A stretch of DNA of 64,000 bases from Thermoanaerobaculum aquaticum (GTDB lineage Bacteria > Acidobacteriota > Thermoanaerobaculia > Thermoanaerobaculales > Thermoanaerobaculaceae), in contig NZ_JMFG01000002.1 of NCBI RefSeq assembly GCF_000687145.1, positions 62,001 through 126,000 on the forward strand, in the 5' to 3' direction. The notes under the pieces were generated by a model. It was given only the letters and a program-made list of their open reading frames with translations, had not been told where the DNA came from and did not search any database. The position numbers were made by a program, and so were the translations under genes. Shown piece by piece: positions 2 to 7,782 of this stretch (the stretch's first letter is position 1; the number at the start of each line of letters is the position of its first letter).

Positions 2-1711
2 CGGGAACCCGATGCGCTGGTGATCCAAGTGGGGGATACCAAGAACCTTCGCCGCACCCTTTACTTGACCCTGCAGCTGGCGGAGCTGGGGCGCAGGCAA
101 ATCCTGCTTTTAAACCTGCAGGACGAAGCGCAAGACTTAGGGGTGCGGGTGGACCGCGGGAAGCTGGAGGCCCGCCTGGGCATCCCGGTGCTCTCCACCA
201 CCGCCATTCGCGGCTCCGGGCTGGAGCAAATCCCCAAGCGCCTGCCGGAAGCTTCGGTGGCGCGCCTCTCCGCTTCCTACCCCCGGGCCATTGAGGACGC
301 CTGCCAGAAGGTAGAAGCGCTCCTCCCTGAGGCGTTGGGACCTGCCCGGCGGGGGATTGCCCTGATGCTGCTGGCGGGCGACGACTCCCTGCTCCCCTGG
401 CTTACGCCCCAGGTGGGGGAGGAGGTGCTGGCCGAGGTGGGTCTCATCCGTGCCCAGGTGGAGCGGCAGCTGGGGCGGCGGGTGGCTGGCGTTCTCTCCC
501 GCTCGCGCTTTCGGGCGGTGGAAGAGCTCCTCAAGGAAACCTTCCGCGCCGACCGGGCGGCCTACGGCTCCTTCCGGGAAACCCTGGGGGCCCTCACCAT
601 GCACCCGGTTTGGGGTGCTTTTTTCTTGGCTGGGGTATTGCTGGCGGCCTACCTGTTTGTGGGCGTTTTTGGCGCCGGTACCCTGGTGGACCTCATTGAA
701 GACGGCCTCTTTGGCAAGATCATTAACCCGGCCGCCCAACGGTTTTTCCAGACGCTTTTAGGGCCGGGGCTCATCACCGAACTGCTGGTGGGGCCTTACG
801 GCGTGATCACCATGGCCCTCACCTACTCGCTGGCCATTGTGCTACCGGTGGTGGGGACGTTTTTCATCTTCTTTGGCATCTTGGAGGACTCGGGCTACCT
901 GCCGCGCCTGGCGGTGATGTTGAACCGCGTGTTCCGGGCCATGGGGCTCAACGGCAAGGCGGTGCTGCCCATGGTTCTGGGTTTGGGCTGCGACACCATG
1001 GCCACCTTGACCACCCGCATCTTGCCCTCCAAAAAGGAGCGGGTGCTGGTGACCTTGCTTTTGGCCTTAGGTGTCCCTTGCTCGGCGCAGCTGGGGGTGA
1101 TCCTGGCCATGCTTTCCAGCATGTCCTTCCTGGGCACCTTCCTGTGGGGTGGGGTGGTGGCGGCCACCCTCTTTGGTGTGGGGTGGGCCGCCGCTCGCCT
1201 GCTGCCGGGCCGCTCCTCGGATTTCCTGCTGGAAATCCCTCCCCTGCGCGTCCCCCAGTTGGGCAACATCTTCATCAAAACCGCCGCTCGCACCGAGTGG
1301 TACCTCAAAGAGGCCGTGCCGCTCTTCATCCTCGGCACCCTGGTGCTCTTTTCTTTGGACGCCACTGGCCTTTTGCGGGTCTTTGAGGGCCTGGCCAAGC
1401 CGGTGGTGTCCGGGCTTTTGGGTTTGCCGCCCGAGGCCGCCAGCTCGTTTTTGGTGGGGTTCTTGCGTCGTGACTACGGGGCCGCGGGCCTGTACGCCCT
1501 GCGGGATGCCGGCAAGCTGGACGGCGTGCAGGCGGTGGTAGCCCTGGTGGTCATTACCCTTTTCGTGCCCTGCATCGCCAACTTCTTCATGATGATCAAG
1601 GAGCGGGGCTTGAAGACCGCCCTGGCCATGGTGGCCTTTATCGTGCCCTTTGCCTTTCTGGTGGGCGGGGTTTTGAACTTTGTGCTGCGCGCCCTGGGGG
1701 TCTCCCTGTGA
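2..1711 (+). CDS. feoB: Ferrous iron transporter FeoB, 5' end cut by the window
   Basis: GTP-dependent inner-membrane Fe(II) importer. The reading frame is open to the left edge, so the Walker A part of the G domain lies outside the window. The visible part begins in the G domain: the NxxD guanine-specificity motif appears as LNLQDEA, followed by the typical LGIPVLSTTAIRGSGL stretch. A helical spacer and about eight membrane segments follow. The pore signatures are the variant type: GLGCDTMATLTTR, GVPCSAQLGVIL and FLRRDYGAAGLY instead of the commoner GCNVPA and E-containing forms. The stop overlaps the next gene in GTGA, so translation is probably coupled. About 569 residues are visible. The identification is firm; only the metal preference of the variant gate is open. 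Confidence 0.95.
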   Translation, partial: REPDALVIQVGDTKNLRRTLYLTLQLAELGRRQILLLNLQDEAQDLGVRVDRGKLEARLGIPVLSTTAIRGSGLEQIPKRLPEASVARLSASYPRAIEDACQKVEALLPEALGPARRGIALMLLAGDDSLLPWLTPQVGEEVLAEVGLIRAQVERQLGRRVAGVLSRSRFRAVEELLKETFRADRAAYGSFRETLGALTMHPVWGAFFLAGVLLAAYLFVGVFGAGTLVDLIEDGLFGKIINPAAQRFFQTLLGPGLITELLVGPYGVITMALTYSLAIVLPVVGTFFIFFGILEDSGYLPRLAVMLNRVFRAMGLNGKAVLPMVLGLGCDTMATLTTRILPSKKERVLVTLLLALGVPCSAQLGVILAMLSSMSFLGTFLWGGVVAATLFGVGWAAARLLPGRSSDFLLEIPPLRVPQLGNIFIKTAARTEWYLKEAVPLFILGTLVLFSLDATGLLRVFEGLAKPVVSGLLGLPPEAASSFLVGFLRRDYGAAGLYALRDAGKLDGVQAVVALVVITLFVPCIANFFMMIKERGLKTALAMVAFIVPFAFLVGGVLNFVLRALGVSL

Positions 1712-1896
1712 GCCGGGAGTGGGTGCGCTGTCCGTTGTGCGGTTTTTCCTTTCCCGGGCAGGCCAGCTGCCCCGCGGGATGCCCGCTTGCTAAGAACTGC
1801 CAAACCCTCTGCTGTCCCAACTGCCACTACCGCTTCGTGCTGACCTCGCCGTGGCTGACGCGGGTCGCCAAGCTGTTCAAGAAAAGGGTCGCGTGA
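1708..1896 (+). CDS. Small Cys-rich zinc-ribbon-like protein of the feo operon
   Basis: A 62-residue protein starting with GTG inside the feoB stop (GTGA) and ending one base into the next ATG, so it is sandwiched in the operon. It has eight cysteines in a CPLCGF ... C ... CPAGCPL ... C ... CCPNCHYRF arrangement, which looks like a zinc ribbon or a small Fe-S/metal site. The tail is basic. Small Cys-rich proteins next to FeoB are a known theme, but I cannot assign a precise family. A role as metal chaperone or FeoB accessory is inferred from position only. Confidence 0.75.
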   Translation: MSREWVRCPLCGFSFPGQASCPAGCPLAKNCQTLCCPNCHYRFVLTSPWLTRVAKLFKKRVA

Positions 1897-2591
1897 TGAG
1901 CGAAGACGTGCTTTTGGTCAAGCCCCCCACCTGGGCCCGGGAGGAAGTGCTGGAGGAGCTGTGGACCGCCCAGGAAGCCCAAACCCCCCTCACCATTTCC
2001 GCCCTGGCCCGGCGCATCCATGCCGGCCCCTCCGAAGGTTGGGGGGGTGTGGTGCAGGAGCTCATCGAAGAGGGGCTGGTGGCGCTGGACGGGGACCTCT
2101 TGCGGTTGACCCCCGAAGGGGACGCCCGGGCGCGGGAGGTGGTGCGCAACCACCGCCTGGCCGAGGTGCTCTTTTACGAGGTTTTGCGCTTGCCCATGAA
2201 GGACAGCGAAGCGGAAGCCTGCCGGCTGGAGCACCTGCTCTCTTCGGAAGCCGCGGAAGCGGTGTGCACCTTCCTGGGCCACCCTCCGGTTTGCCCCCAC
2301 GGCCGCCCCATCCCCCCCGGCCAGTGCTGCCAGGCCCTAAGCCGTCCGCAGGCGCCGCTTTTGGTGCCTCTCACCCAGCTCAAGCCGGGACAGCAGGCCA
2401 AGGTGGTGCTCTTGGCCCCCAAGCACCGGGACCGCCTGGAGCAGCTGGCGGACCTCGGCCTCACCCCAGGGGCGGTGGTGCACCTGAAGCAAAAGCAGCC
2501 CTCGGTGGTGGTGGAGGTGGACCGCACGCTTTTGGCCTTAGAGGACGACATTGCCGGCGGCATTTACGTGCGGCCAGTGGCCGAGTGGTGA
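1896..2591 (+). CDS. DtxR-type metal-dependent regulator with C-terminal FeoA-like domain
   Basis: A 231-residue cytoplasmic regulator. The start at ATG 1896 overlaps the preceding TGA by one base; a longer in-frame reading from upstream only duplicates the neighbouring gene. The N-terminal winged helix covers roughly residues 10-75. The dimer and metal-binding domain contains ACRLEHLLSS, which matches the Cys-x-x-Glu-His primary metal ligands of DtxR. A linker with CPHGRPIPPGQCC follows. The last ~75 residues (from LVPLTQLKPGQQAKVVLLA) form an FeoA/SH3-like domain. Cotranscription with feoB suggests it senses Fe(II) and controls the feo operon or interacts with FeoB through the FeoA-like part. 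The DNA target is not visible here. Confidence 0.88.
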   Translation: MSEDVLLVKPPTWAREEVLEELWTAQEAQTPLTISALARRIHAGPSEGWGGVVQELIEEGLVALDGDLLRLTPEGDARAREVVRNHRLAEVLFYEVLRLPMKDSEAEACRLEHLLSSEAAEAVCTFLGHPPVCPHGRPIPPGQCCQALSRPQAPLLVPLTQLKPGQQAKVVLLAPKHRDRLEQLADLGLTPGAVVHLKQKQPSVVVEVDRTLLALEDDIAGGIYVRPVAEW

Positions 2592-2592
2592 T

Positions 2593-2610
2593 TGTTAAGC
2601 ATGCTTGACA
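2593..2610. promoter_or_regulatory. 18-bp near-perfect palindrome over the -35 box (probable DtxR-family operator)
   Basis: TGTTAAGCATGCTTGACA is symmetric in eight of nine base pairs; only the 2596/2607 pair breaks it. Its last six bases are the -35 hexamer TTGACA of the next gene, so a bound repressor would block RNA polymerase. Length and position fit operators of DtxR-family repressors. The downstream gene encodes such a repressor, which suggests autoregulation. Confidence 0.65.
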
Positions 2611-2631
2611 TCGCTTTTGGGATGCTATAGA
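2605..2631 (+). promoter_or_regulatory. Promoter of the second DtxR/apbE/porin operon
   Basis: The -35 is TTGACA (2605-2610) and the -10 is TATAGA (2626-2631), with a short 15-bp spacer. The ATG at 2643 lies only 11 bases after the -10, giving a 5' leader of about 4 nt or less. No Shine-Dalgarno sequence is present, so the transcript is probably leaderless or nearly so. Confidence 0.6.
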
Positions 2632-2642
2632 CTGCCCTGCGT

Positions 2643-3176
2643 ATGGAGAGCTTTGCCACCACCTGGCGGGCTTTTGAGGCCAACGAGATCACCCACTCGG
2701 CGGCCCACTACCTCCTGGCCATTGCCGCCTTCAACCGTAAGGGCACCGACCCCCGGGCGGTAGACGTGGCCCGGGAGCTGGGTATTTCCCGGGCGGCCGC
2801 TTCCCTGCAGCTGCGCAGCCTGCAGGAGCACGGGCTGGTGGAGGTGGACGCCCGCCAGCGCCTGCACCTCACCCGGGCGGGAGCCGATGTGGTGGCCCGG
2901 GTGGCCTCCAAGCGGGAGGTGGTGCGGGTGTTCCTGGAGGAAATCCTGGGGGTTCGGCCGCAAGCGGCAGCGCTGGACGCCTGCAAGGTGGAGCACCTGC
3001 TGTCGGAGGAAACGGGGGCAGCGCTCATCCGCCTCATTCGCTTCTTGCGCTCCGATCACCCGGCGGCGCGGGAAGCGCTGGCGGTTTTTAAGGAAACCAC
3101 CGCCAGCTGTCCCCCCGAAGCCCGCTGCGACCTCTGCACCAACACCTGCCTTTTGGCAGCGGGTAGTTCCCAGTAA
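2643..3176 (+). CDS. DtxR-family iron-dependent repressor with Cys-rich tail
   Basis: A 177-residue regulator. The winged helix contains a clear recognition-helix region (RELGISRAAASLQLRSLQEH). The metal-binding segment ACKVEHLLSEETG keeps the Cys-x-x-Glu-His ligand set seen in DtxR/IdeR, rather than the MntR Glu-x-x-Glu-His set, which favours iron as corepressor. The C-terminus lacks an SH3/FeoA domain and instead ends in CPPEARCDLCTNTC, four cysteines that could bind another metal or Fe-S cluster. It leads an operon: apbE starts 10 bases downstream after an AAGGAG ribosome site. It is a paralogue of the preceding DtxR-FeoA protein. Confidence 0.88.
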   Translation: MESFATTWRAFEANEITHSAAHYLLAIAAFNRKGTDPRAVDVARELGISRAAASLQLRSLQEHGLVEVDARQRLHLTRAGADVVARVASKREVVRVFLEEILGVRPQAAALDACKVEHLLSEETGAALIRLIRFLRSDHPAAREALAVFKETTASCPPEARCDLCTNTCLLAAGSSQ

Positions 3177-3186
3177 GGAGACGGCG

Positions 3187-4257
3187 GTGATACACGCTCT
3201 CCTTCCCCGCCCCGCCTCTGCCACAAATAAGAGATTGTGTTCACTTTTAGCTTGCTCTCTTGCCGCCCTCCCCCTGGAGGCGAGCACCTGCTGGCGTCAG
3301 GTGGTTCTCATGGGGACCACGCTTTCGGTAAGGGTTTGGGCCAACCCCCCGGAAGACCCCTGCCTTTTGGCCGAAAAAGCCATTGGCGCGGTGGAGGAAA
3401 CCGAGAGGCGGCTTTCCACCTGGCGGCAGGACAGCGAGTTTTCCGCCCTCAACCGGGCACCGGCGGGGCAAGCGGTGCCGCTTTCCTCCGAGCTCTGCCA
3501 CGAGCTTTCCACGGCCCTGCGCTGGGCCCAGGCAACCGGCGGGGCCTTTGATCCCACGGTGGGAGCTTTGATCCGCGCCTATGACCTCCGGGGCCCGGGC
3601 CGCTGGCCAAGCCCTCAGGAGCTGGCGCAAGCCCAGAGGGCCGTGGGTTACGAGAAACTGCGCTTGGAAAGCTGCCGCCTTTTGAAAACCGCGCCGGATG
3701 TGGTTTTGGAGGAGGGTGGCTTTGGCAAAGGGGCCGCGCTGGACGCGGCGCTTGCCGCGGTGGGCGGCAAGGTGCAAGCGGTGGAGCTCAACCTGGGGGG
3801 CCAGGTGAGCTTTTGGGGAAAGGAAGCCCTGGCCGTGGATCTGGTGCACCCCGACCACCGCGGGGAGGTGGTGGCCACCTGGATCCTCCCCCCCGGCTCG
3901 GTGGCCACCTCGGGGAACAGCGAGCGTGCCCGCTGGGTGGACGCCAAGCCCCTGGGCCATCTTCTGGACCCCCGGAGCGGGCAGCCCGCCCGGGATTTTG
4001 GCTCGGTGGCGGTGTGGGCGCCGCAGGGGATCACCGCCGACTGCCTGTCCACCGCGCTTTTCGTCTTAGGGCCGGAAAATGCTTTCCGGTTTTTAGCGAA
4101 CCACCGGGAGGTGGCGGCGGTTTTCCTGGTGCGGGAGGGAAAGGGTTTGCGCTTGCTCACCACCCCCCACCGGGGAAGGCTCATCCCCAAAGCAAACAAC
4201 GTGCAGGTGGAGGAGATCGTTTGGCCGCACCAAGGCCAAAAGGAGGAAAAACCATGA
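3187..4257 (+). CDS. apbE: FAD:protein FMN transferase ApbE
   Basis: Transfers FMN from FAD onto a Thr/Ser of exported flavoproteins. The start is GTG 3187, 6 bases after AAGGAG; longer in-frame readings overlap the repressor gene and are rejected. The N-terminus has a hydrophobic stretch (LCSLLACSLAALPLEAS), consistent with export or a membrane anchor. ApbE signatures appear in order: MGTTLSVRV, GGFGKGAALDAA, LNLGGQVSFWG, VATSGNSERA, HLLDPRSGQPA and ADCLSTALFVLG. The length of 356 residues is typical. Two genes downstream lies an FMN_bind protein with a flavinylation motif, the obvious substrate. The stop overlaps the porin ATG. Confidence 0.93.
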   Translation: MIHALLPRPASATNKRLCSLLACSLAALPLEASTCWRQVVLMGTTLSVRVWANPPEDPCLLAEKAIGAVEETERRLSTWRQDSEFSALNRAPAGQAVPLSSELCHELSTALRWAQATGGAFDPTVGALIRAYDLRGPGRWPSPQELAQAQRAVGYEKLRLESCRLLKTAPDVVLEEGGFGKGAALDAALAAVGGKVQAVELNLGGQVSFWGKEALAVDLVHPDHRGEVVATWILPPGSVATSGNSERARWVDAKPLGHLLDPRSGQPARDFGSVAVWAPQGITADCLSTALFVLGPENAFRFLANHREVAAVFLVREGKGLRLLTTPHRGRLIPKANNVQVEEIVWPHQGQKEEKP

Positions 4258-5600
4258 AGCGATGGCTGGTTGCGTTTGTGTTCTGTGCGTTCGGTGTCAC
4301 GCTTTCCGCCTGGGGGCAGACCCTGGAGGAAAGGGTCAAGGCGCTGGAAGCCGAGGTGGCGGCTCTCCGGCAGCAGGTGGCCGCCGCCCAGGGTGCCAAG
4401 GACAACGCGCGCCTTTCGGAGCTGGAGCGCAAGCTGGCGGTGCTCGCCGAGGAGCTGGAGCGCCTGCGCTTGGGCGAGCTGGGGGAGGCCATGGCCGCCC
4501 CCCGGGCCTTGGGGTTAGGCCCGGCGGCCTCCAGGGTGTACGCCGCCAAGCCCGGGGTTTCTTTGGCGGGTTACGGGGAGCTCCTTTACCAAAACTTTGC
4601 CACCACCCGCGATGACGGTCGCCCTTCGGGCAAGGTCGACGTTGCCGATGCTTACCGGGCGGTGCTTTACACCGGCTACAAGTTCGACGACCGCTGGATC
4701 TTCAACTCCGAGCTGGAGGTGGAGCACGCCCACACCGAAAAAGGGGGCGCCGTGGAGCTGGAGTTTGCGTACCTGGATTGGCTCGCCTCCCCAGCGGCCA
4801 ACCTGCGGGCCGGCCTCATCCTGGTTCCCCTGGGCCTGGTGAACGAAGTGCACGAGCCCACCACCTTCTTCCCTGCCCGCCGGGCGGAAACCGAAACCCG
4901 CATCCTGCCCGCCACCTGGATGGAGCTGGGCTTTGGCGCCTACGGGGATGTGGGACCCTTCTCCTACCGCACCTACGTCCTCACCGGCTTGGATGCCAGC
5001 AAGTTTTCGGCCTCCGGCTTTCGCTCTGGCCGACAGTCGGGAGCTCTAGCCAAAGCCGAAAGCTTCGCCTGGGCGGGGAGGGTGGACTGGACCCAAACCC
5101 CAGGGCTTTTGGCCGGCATCGGCGTTTACCTGGGCGAAGCGGGCCAGGGGCTTTCCACCAGCGATGGCCGCGAGCTCTCGGTGCCCACCCGCATCTTTGA
5201 GGCCCACGCCGAGTACAAACTGCGCGGGCTCACGCTCCGGGGGCTTTGGGCCCAAGCCACGGTGGGCGAGGCTGCTGCCCTCAACCGCACCCTGGGGCTT
5301 TCGGGAAGCGCCGCGGTGGCTGAAAAGCTGCAAGGGGGCTACCTGGAGGTGGCCTACGACCTCCTCCCCGCCGAGCGCCGGGTGCTGGCACCGTTCATCC
5401 GCTACGAGAAGATCAACACCCAGAAGACCATGCCCGCAGGCTTTGCCGCCAACCCCGCCAACGACCAGAAGATCCTCACCCTGGGTGTGGCTTTCCAGCC
5501 CCTTCCGCAAATCATCTTCAAGCTGGACGCCCAAAACGTCCAAAACCGCGCGAAAAGCGGCATCAACCAGTGGAACCTGGCTTTGGGCTATGTGTTTTAA
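4254..5600 (+). CDS. Outer-membrane porin with N-terminal coiled coil
   Basis: A 448-residue exported protein beginning at the ATG of an ATGA overlap with apbE, preceded by AGGAGG. It has a signal peptide (about residues 1-21, ending SAWGQ). A heptad-rich coiled coil follows (about 23-75, LEERVKALEAEVAALRQQVA), then a long series of alternating amphipathic strands ending in LALGYVF with a terminal Phe, as expected for BAM-assembled barrels. The overall plan resembles OprO/OprP-like or coiled-coil-anchored porins. Substrate is unknown. Position in a repressor-led operon with a periplasmic flavoprotein suggests uptake or export linked to metal or redox chemistry. Confidence 0.8.
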   Translation: MKRWLVAFVFCAFGVTLSAWGQTLEERVKALEAEVAALRQQVAAAQGAKDNARLSELERKLAVLAEELERLRLGELGEAMAAPRALGLGPAASRVYAAKPGVSLAGYGELLYQNFATTRDDGRPSGKVDVADAYRAVLYTGYKFDDRWIFNSELEVEHAHTEKGGAVELEFAYLDWLASPAANLRAGLILVPLGLVNEVHEPTTFFPARRAETETRILPATWMELGFGAYGDVGPFSYRTYVLTGLDASKFSASGFRSGRQSGALAKAESFAWAGRVDWTQTPGLLAGIGVYLGEAGQGLSTSDGRELSVPTRIFEAHAEYKLRGLTLRGLWAQATVGEAAALNRTLGLSGSAAVAEKLQGGYLEVAYDLLPAERRVLAPFIRYEKINTQKTMPAGFAANPANDQKILTLGVAFQPLPQIIFKLDAQNVQNRAKSGINQWNLALGYVF

Positions 5601-6129
5601 CGGCACGTTGCTGCGCCGGGGGGGAGCCTTGCTCCTCCCCGGGCTTTGCGCCGCGGTCCTTTCCGCGCGGGTGCTGAAAACCCCGGAAGAGGCGATTGCT
5701 CTGGCCTTCCCCGGGACGCAGGTCACCAAAGAAGCCCACTACCTCACCCCCCAGCAAAAGGCCACCCTCGCCGCCCAGGGGGTGGGGGAGGTGCCGGGCT
5801 TGGTTTTCCAGTACCGGGTGCAGCGGGAGGGCCAGCTTCTCGCCTTTGCCTACCTGGACACCCACCGGGTGCGCACCCTGCCGGAAACCCTTCTGGTGAT
5901 CCTCAACCCCCAGGGGCAGGTGCTGCGGGTGGAGGTGTTGGCCTTTGCCGAGCCCCCGGACTACCTGCCCCGGGAGAGCTGGTACCGGCAGTTTGCCGGG
6001 ACCTCCCCGGAAAAGCCGCCGCGTCTGGGTGAGAACCTCCGCCCGGTGGCGGGTGCCACCCTCACCGCCCAGGCTACCGCTACTGCAGTGCGGCGGGTTT
6101 TGGCTTTGCACCAGGTGCTTTCGCCATGA
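5590..6129 (+). CDS. Exported FMN-binding (FMN_bind) flavoprotein
   Basis: A 179-residue protein whose ATG lies inside the last codons of the porin gene. A hydrophobic N-terminus (GGALLLPGLCAAVLSA) suggests export or anchoring. The body matches the FMN_bind domain of RnfG/NqrC/NosR-type proteins. Near the C-terminus, VAGATLTAQATATAVR carries the GAT-x-T flavinylation motif, whose second Thr would be the ApbE-modified residue. apbE two genes upstream supplies the enzyme and the next gene supplies a membrane electron donor or acceptor. Likely role: periplasmic electron carrier. The acceptor (ferric iron, quinone or other) is inference. Confidence 0.85.
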   Translation: MCFNGTLLRRGGALLLPGLCAAVLSARVLKTPEEAIALAFPGTQVTKEAHYLTPQQKATLAAQGVGEVPGLVFQYRVQREGQLLAFAYLDTHRVRTLPETLLVILNPQGQVLRVEVLAFAEPPDYLPRESWYRQFAGTSPEKPPRLGENLRPVAGATLTAQATATAVRRVLALHQVLSP

Positions 6130-6647
6130 ACGGGGTGCGGCGCTCGGGGCTGAGCCTTGCTGAGCTGGTGGCCTTTTGGCTGGCCCAGCTGCTCGTGGGT
6201 GTCACCGGCGTGGCCCTGCTTGTCCTGCGGCTTTCGCCGCCACCCGAGGATGCTTTTGCGGCGGTGGCCCCCTCTTTTCCCTTTTGGCAGCACGCCCACG
6301 TGCTTGCCGCGCCGATCCTGGTTTTCTTCCTGGGCTTGCTGTGGGCCCGGCACGCCAGCCCCTTCCTCCGGGCCCGCCGGCCGCGCCGGCTTTCCGGGGT
6401 GGCCCTTTTGCTTTTGGCCCTGGTGATGGTGGCCTCGGGCTACGGGTTGCAGGTGAGCGTGGAGGAGGCGCTCCGCCAGAGCTTCCGCTGGCTGCACACC
6501 ATCGCCGGCCTGGCGTGGCTTGCCACCGCCGGGCTGCACCTCTTGGGTCGCCGGGCTACGAACGGGGGTCAAAGCGCAAACGGGCAAAACGGCGCTTGCC
6601 CACCTGCACCAAAAGTGCCGATCCTGCCGTACAGGGGACGGTCGTAA
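6126..6647 (+). CDS. Small four-helix membrane protein with heme-ligand-like histidines
   Basis: A 173-residue protein overlapping the FMN-binding gene by ATGA. Four hydrophobic helices are visible. Histidines sit where heme b ligands would: HAHVL and WARH at the two ends of helix 2, and WLHTIAG ... LHLLG spaced 14 residues apart in helix 4. This resembles small cytochrome b561/DUF4405-type proteins. With the FMN-binding partner it could move electrons between the quinone pool and the periplasmic flavin. The hydrophilic C-terminal ~30 residues are encoded antisense to the end of tyrS, a 92-bp convergent overlap; a shorter C-terminus cannot be excluded. Confidence 0.72.
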
Positions 6648-7782
6648 ACGGGTCGGAAACCACCGTCCCCTCTACCTTTACTCCCCCCTGGCTCATGAGC
6701 CTGCGGGCTTCGGCGTTGGAGGGGGCAAGCCCGCTGGCCACCAGCAGCTTGGCCAGGAGCTGGGGCTCCCCGGCGGGGAGGGTGATTTCCTGCACCTCCT
6801 CGGGAACCTCCCGCCGCTGGTGCACCTTGCGGAAGTGCGCCTCCGCTTCCCTTGCGGCGTCCTCACCGTGGAAGTCGCGGGTAATGGTGTGGGCCAGCCG
6901 GAACTTCACCTCCATGGGGTGCTCCTGCCCCTGCTCCACCCGCTTCTTGAGGGCGGCCAGCTCCGAGGCCGGAGTGTCGGTCAAAAGCTCCCAGTAAAGC
7001 CACATGAGCTCGTCGGAAATGGACATGAGCTTGCCAAACATCTCCTCGGGGGGATCCTCCACTGCCACGTAGTTGCCCAGGGACTTGGACATCTTCTCCA
7101 CCCCATCCAGCCCCGGCAACAGCGGCAGGGTCATGACGATTTGCGGCGGCAGGCCCATCTTTTCCATGAGGTCCCGCCCCACCAGCAAATTGAAGAGCTG
7201 ATCGGTGCCGCCCAGCTCCACGTCAGCCTTCAAGGCCACCGAGTCGTAGGCCTGCGCCACCGGGTACAAAAGCTCGTGGAGGGCAATGGGCTGGCCAGCT
7301 GCCAGCCTCTTGGCAAAATCGTCCCGCTCCAGCATTTGTGCCACCGTTACCTTGGCGGTGAGGCGGATCCAGTCCTCCGAGGTAAGCGCCCCCAGCCACC
7401 GGGAGTTGAAGTCCACCACCGTCTTTTCCGGGTCCAGGAGCTTGAAGATCTGCCGCTTGTAGGTTTCGGCGTTGGCCAGCACCTGTTCCCGGGTGAGCTG
7501 AGGCCGGGTGGCTTTTTTCCCGGTGGGGTCGCCAATCATGCCGGTAAAATCTCCAATCAAGAACACCACGGTGTGCCCCAGCATTTGGAAGTGCCGCATT
7601 TTGCGGATCACCACCGTGTGCCCCAAATGCAAGTCCGGCGCCGAAGGGTCAAACCCCACCTTTACCACCAGCCCTCGCCCTTCCTTTTGTGCCTGTTCCA
7701 ACCTTTTTTCCAGGTCCTCGGGGCGCACCACATCCACGCACCCCTTCAACAGCAAGTCCATCTGCTCGGAAACCTTCACCAC
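6556..7782 (-). CDS. tyrS: Tyrosyl-tRNA synthetase
   Basis: Class I synthetase that charges tRNA-Tyr. The signature HLGH (in [11 protein letters not shown]) stands for HIGH, and the KMSKS loop is present as EKMSKSLGN, the form found in TyrZ-like enzymes. [14 protein letters not shown] is also typical. An S4 RNA-binding domain forms the C-terminus (about residues 340-408). The start is one of two tandem GTG codons (7782 or 7779) just after GAGGAG; ATG 7761 is an alternative. It follows the M16-like gene by 10 bases, so the two are probably cotranscribed. Its 3' end overlaps the convergent membrane-protein gene by 92 bp. Confidence 0.95.

Follow-up and report, generated by a model that had tools for sequence, protein, structure and literature searches.

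Known systems and the Thermoanaerobaculum module

The closest described relatives of the system reported here are the flavinylated clusters surveyed in PMC8238504 (MsrQ-, PepSY-, P19-, DsbD- and Nqr/Rnf-like), which combine ApbE, an extracytosolic flavinylation substrate and a transmembrane electron-transfer protein. Iron assimilation was inferred for several of them in that survey from colocalisation with iron transporters (VIT1, P19/FTR1 and TonB receptors). We analysed a 64,000-nt stretch of the Thermoanaerobaculum aquaticum genome (positions 62,001 to 126,000 of contig NZ_JMFG01000002.1, called the window, to whose numbering all positions below refer), in which the same three kinds of component are encoded in one compact operon at 2595-6647. 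This operon comprises an operator/promoter and genes for a DtxR-type regulator (DtxR2), ApbE, an outer-membrane porin, an exported FMN_bind protein and a four-helix cytochrome-like protein. It differs from the surveyed clusters in having the four-helix DUF4405/b561-like protein and a dedicated porin, while FeoB and porins are absent from the main text of that paper. We propose with moderate confidence that the module is a periplasmic ferric reductase, equipped with a porin of its own, that is repressed by iron and serves assimilation.

Heme b binding has been shown for DUF4405 and FezC, and the heme sites of FezC were proposed to form by dimerising (PMC11334425). These are also membrane proteins co-encoded with apbE and carrying conserved helix histidines, the heme being predicted in our case. 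However they have six helices instead of four and Flavodoxin_4 as the partner instead of FMN_bind, and porin, FeoB and DtxR are unmentioned in the text of that paper. On the porin side, Fur-controlled porins were predicted beside feoAB in Geobacter and Desulfuromonas and proposed for iron uptake (PMC545781). By their description they are similar in being predicted iron-regulated porins adjoining or co-regulated with feoAB, but no apbE, FMN_bind or cytochrome partner was described. The OmpC/FeoB route of ferrous iron uptake shown in E. coli (PMC7315122) likewise joins a porin with FeoB as a route for iron, but OmpC is a general porin and is not in an operon with a reductase. We did not find the apbE-porin-FMN_bind-cytochrome unit, or its link to feoB, in the main texts of the open-licence literature searched. 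Each ingredient has a precedent and most of the parts belong to known families; it is the combination that is unusual and widely kept.

Conservation and components of the module

The original prediction staked its proposal on conserved linkage in related genomes, and this linkage is what we observed. We used an even sample of 297 genomes drawn from Acidobacteriota, and a set of 80 loci from named genomes that are the closest by porin similarity. The porin is present in 107 of the 297 genomes, and for 76 of the 79 strong porin genes in this sample the next gene 3' of the porin, in the same orientation and mostly no more than 150 nt away, is that of the FMN_bind protein. Of the 80 loci, 72 have enough flanking sequence to judge the neighbours: FMN_bind adjoins the porin in 71 of them, and 70 have a gene for a DUF4405-like or an alternative membrane protein. 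In 46 of 63 loci apbE is no more than 3 kb away and on the same strand. The labels of the metagenome-assembled genomes (MAGs) place these loci in Acidobacteriota, Gemmatimonadota, Planctomycetota, Zixiibacteriota, Nitrospiria and others, a list of phyla that is provisional as such labels can be wrong. The nearest public relatives of the porin are in Thermoanaerobaculum MAGs, with 73-83% identity. A search for other conserved neighbours gave nothing general, only a citrate-synthase-like gene by fur-feoAB and synteny confined to one genus.

The module is likely to be a flavin/heme electron-transfer chain, judging from its sequences, because it encodes a member of the FMN_bind family, the sole ApbE of the genome and a membrane protein with four invariant histidines. 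The ApbE of the module is the only one in G000 (this genome), G002 (the sister genome) and G005, which is one of our further relatives together with G001 and G004. Its start codon is GTG by assignment, and inspection of the sequence revealed an N-terminal hydrophobic export segment. The FMN_bind protein of the window taken alone scores 18.9 bits against PF04205, under the 22-bit cut-off, while all 18 of its homologues match this family at E<=0.01 (best 1.6e-7), and it has a weak match to RnfG structures. A PF04205 search of its own genome returned no matches, and the window's own protein is itself below threshold, so other weak members are possible. The position of Thr157, the candidate site of FMN attachment, holds Thr in 17 of the 18 homologues and Ser in one. 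The family consensus at this motif is (R/H)-P-V-(T/S/A)-G-A-T, with the Gly-Ala-Thr core kept.

H58 and H76 in helix 2 and H124 and H138 in helix 4 of the four-helix protein are kept in all 65 aligned homologues, in agreement with the earlier claim of heme-ligand-like His pairs. The AlphaFold model (pLDDT 87.7) has helices at 11-36, 51-83, 88-110 and 114-146, and the two His pairs on two helices are spaced to span the bilayer, as in a di-heme b arrangement. Judging from the positive charges that follow helices 2 and 4, the topology would be N-in/C-in, with H58/H124 paired outside and H76/H138 inside. We set aside the identity of this protein with DUF4405 proper (PF14358) since its score is under the cut-off (18.7 vs 26.7 bits); 6 of the 65 homologues match this family at E<=0.01. 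In nine loci (L046, L055, L086, L097, L099, L109, L115, L118 and L126) the DUF4405-like gene is swapped for an unrelated-looking predicted membrane protein. This replacement protein has three conserved histidines, in an HxH and a further His ~16 residues on, none of them late in the sequence, and no Pfam match. It could form heme sites by dimerising, by analogy with FezC (PMC11334425).

The AlphaFold model of the porin (pLDDT 89.4) shows an N-terminal coiled coil and 16 strands, and its best Foldseek matches are Omp-Pst2 (E ~4e-13), OmpF, OmpC and OprP, with E-values of ~1e-12 to 1e-13. The predicted monomer has the 16-strand porin fold: a conserved loop (porin residues 191-222) joins strands 5 and 6, which is the position of the constriction loop in such porins. 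Nine residues of this loop (N197, H200, E201, P202, R210, E214, P219, T221 and W222) are invariant in the homologue alignment, in line with a pore whose solute preference is fixed. Porin_O_P (PF07396) does not match the porin of the window and matches 4 of 70 homologues at E<=0.01, and the porin profile searched against PDB sequences gave coiled-coil matches only. We also considered the porin as an electron conduit and hold this unlikely, given the 16 strands and the conserved inner loop.

Iron control and locus layout

Iron control of the module, which the original prediction had claimed, is well supported by the sequence data, because the operator is common with feoB, Fur and DtxR neighbours recur, and the operator precedes a TonB-dependent-receptor-like gene in a relative. 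The exact 16-mer TTAAGCATGCTTGACA of the module promoter is also found at the feoB promoter of G000 (C2:61687), both copies are kept exactly in G002, and the pattern read backwards as a control has no matches in six genomes; hence the operator is not due to chance. Near copies with no more than 2 mismatches lie before dtxR2-apbE in G001, before feoB in G004, and before two genes in G005, feoB and one with a product that reads like a TonB-dependent receptor. The G005 genes from feoB through the regulators to the apbE module, including the FMN_bind and cytochrome genes, are arranged as one operon, the sole operator of which is at feoB. Two more copies in G000 precede an alginate_exp-type outer-membrane protein (PF13372; L144, G000:C2:21979, 1 mismatch) and a c-type cytochrome with a coiled-coil porin-like gene after it (L146, G000:C1:43955, 2 mismatches). 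The promoter search of 2400-6900 found one promoter-like site where 0.2 were expected, namely the -35/-10 pair at this operator.

Of 33 porin-bearing genomes, 13 carry a Fur gene no more than 5 kb from the porin, against 0.16 expected (P ~1e-20 under a Poisson model ignoring relatedness). FeoB neighbours the porin in 12 of the 80 loci chosen by porin similarity, where ~0.4 would be expected, and these include two FeoB types and two gene orders, i.e. fur-feoAB-apbE-porin-FMN-cyt and dtxR-porin-apbE-FMN-cyt-feoB. The two types and two orders suggest a repeated association of FeoB with the module. Overall the linkage to iron regulators is recurrent, and that to FeoB is a minority pattern.

The operator-binding protein would be one of the two DtxR-type regulators of the locus, DtxR2 or the DtxR-FeoA fusion. 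The N-terminal PF01325 domain of DtxR2 scores 18.6 bits, under the 26-bit cut-off. When aligned with the IdeR, DtxR and MntR structures, DtxR2 keeps the Cys-x-x-Glu-His ligand group, and its ancillary-site ligands are changed. Its C-terminal Cys cluster, CDLCTNTC, could bind a metal or an Fe-S cluster, taking the place that the SH3 domain has in DtxR; related Cys-rich ends occur in homologues at L106, L122, L127 and L063, other phyla included.

The layout given in the original prediction was borne out, with its four genes in place behind a DtxR-type regulator and a palindrome-bearing promoter, and with FeoB and a second regulator directly upstream (Table 1). The junctions are as tight as had been claimed: the gap between the regulator and ApbE is 10 nt, and the following genes overlap by 4 nt (ApbE-porin), 11 nt (porin-FMN_bind) and 4 nt (FMN_bind-four-helix). 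A Fur-family gene lies directly 5' of feoB in G000, before the window (C2:61102-61653; L052:9103-9654). The 62-aa Cys-rich protein encoded after feoB has no clear Pfam family, and may be a Feo accessory or metal-binding protein. From the far side a tyrosyl-tRNA-synthetase-like gene, identified by inspecting its translation, converges on the module.

Table 1. Features of the iron-linked locus in window coordinates
Feature	Position	Strand	Details
FeoB ferrous-iron permease	2..1711 (start 256 nt before window)	+	PF02421, PF17910, PF07670, PF07664; feoB promoter with the same operator (G000:C2:61687)
62-aa Cys-rich protein, between feoB and the DtxR-FeoA gene	1708..1896	+	81% (G002) and 69% (G005) identity
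DtxR-FeoA fusion regulator	1896..2591	+	PF02742 88 bits, PF04023 55 bits, above cut-off; IdeR and FeoA structures matched
Operator TTAAGCATGCTTGACA, imperfect palindrome	2595..2610	+	overlaps -35 box TTGACA (2605-2610)
-10 box TAGACT	2628..2633	+	spacer 17 nt; start codon at 2643, hence a very short leader
DtxR-type metal-dependent regulator (DtxR2), 177 aa	2643..3176	+	Cys-rich C-terminus; PF02742 37.8 bits vs cut-off 27
ApbE, FAD:protein FMN transferase	3187..4257	+	PF02424 E 9.5e-58, 196 bits vs cut-off 25.6
Outer-membrane porin	4254..5600	+	signal peptide, coiled coil ~24-77, 16 predicted strands
Exported FMN_bind protein, 179 aa	5590..6129	+	candidate FMN-attachment Thr157 in RPVAGATLT
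Four-helix membrane protein, 173 aa, DUF4405/cytochrome-b561-like	6126..6647	+	invariant H58, H76, H124, H138

Proposed role and alternatives

Starting from the genes, their order, the common operator, the conservation and the invariant histidines, all read directly from the DNA, we infer the acceptor, the porin substrate, the covalent FMN, the hemes with their pairing and the direction of electron flow as follows. When iron is short, the DtxR-type repressor would leave its site TTAAGCATGCTTGA, an element overlapping the -35 box, at the promoters of both feoB and the module. Thr157 in the exported FMN_bind protein would then receive its FMN from ApbE. The four-helix protein would hold two b hemes, predicted to be liganded by H58/H124 on the periplasmic side and H76/H138 on the cytoplasmic side, and would pass electrons to the periplasmic flavin from a donor pool in the membrane, which is probably menaquinol. 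The porin would let in small ferric species, from which the reduced flavin would make Fe2+. This Fe2+ would be imported by FeoB here and by another transporter in other lineages.

Several points weigh against this reading. The GATLT flavinylation motif named in the original prediction is present, but its context, R-P-V-A-G-A-T, departs from the published D-x-x-[S/T]-G-A-[S/T]: the motif is without the consensus Asp, and the protein of the window has Ala where Ser/Thr precedes Gly. Loss of this Asp was reported in a review to have only minor effects. One large clade has no apbE adjacent to the module, the gene being elsewhere in the genome there. The best fold match of the four-helix protein, E. 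coli hydrogenase-1 cytochrome b, is not significant (E 0.09). Electron transfer from menaquinol to a flavin may be energetically unfavourable unless the membrane potential drives it. In one genus the position directly 5' of apbE is taken not by an iron gene but by a pair of genes for an ABC permease and ATPase, which resemble ModBC by eye (L050:3914-5298). An Rrf2 regulator is also found near this pair. Of 78 porin-bearing genomes in the even sample, only 2 have FeoB at 5 kb or less from the porin, and 19 are without any FeoB_C match. Because of these two counts the earlier suggestion that ferric reduction feeds FeoB is too narrow, while iron control and an electron-transfer chain, on which it also drew, are retained.

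The module might instead serve respiration as a dissimilatory metal reductase, its cytochrome and flavin delivering electrons to Fe(III)/Mn(IV) as the terminal acceptor and its porin either letting soluble chelates through or acting as an electron conduit. Thermoanaerobaculum is reported, in a passage of PMC7729950 citing Losey 2013, to be able to reduce iron, which would allow a respiratory role, and a separate operator copy precedes the pair of c-type cytochrome and coiled-coil porin-like genes. But the operator common with feoB and the Fur/DtxR neighbours point to iron supply, the 16-strand porin with its conserved inner loop resembles solute porins, and the module has no multiheme cytochrome. 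In addition the module is common across a phylum that, to our knowledge, is not generally known for metal respiration, and we judge this role improbable. Manganese or another metal, not iron, could also be the signal for the regulator and the module, as the best NCBIfam and PDB matches of DtxR2 include MntR. However DtxR2 keeps the Cys of the DtxR/IdeR site, its operator is common with feoB, and Fur-family genes stand in for DtxR2 in other lineages, all of which makes such a signal very unlikely.

Another explanation is a flavin-based replacement pathway under iron scarcity, the acceptor being some other periplasmic or imported substrate and the iron control reflecting the sparing of iron enzymes. 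Flavin-for-iron replacement has been proposed as a rationale for flavinylated systems (PMC8238504), and both the genomes without a FeoB_C match and the non-iron ABC transporter adjoining the module in one genus would fit. We find this explanation improbable: the module itself probably needs heme, a pathway of this kind hardly accounts for the way different feoB genes have repeatedly come to share a cluster with the module, and no other enzyme gene is generally conserved by the module beyond the close synteny of one genus.

Returning to the assimilatory ferric reductase, we speculate that the coiled coil and the conserved loop of the porin may dock the flavinylated protein, so that ferric iron would be reduced on entry by an envelope-spanning porin-flavin-cytochrome channel. 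We give this extension a low probability. If true, it would be a flavin counterpart of the known porin-cytochrome conduits, directed inward for iron uptake and found in several phyla.

The source of ferrous iron for FeoB-dependent bacteria under ferric supply is often unclear, and the module provides a concrete four-protein candidate. It adds a dedicated porin, which is unmentioned in the texts of the two main surveys (PMC8238504, PMC11334425), to flavin-based electron transfer. This candidate may be relevant to many lineages, mostly uncultured, of Acidobacteriota and related MAGs, with Thermoanaerobaculum as a cultured genus among them.

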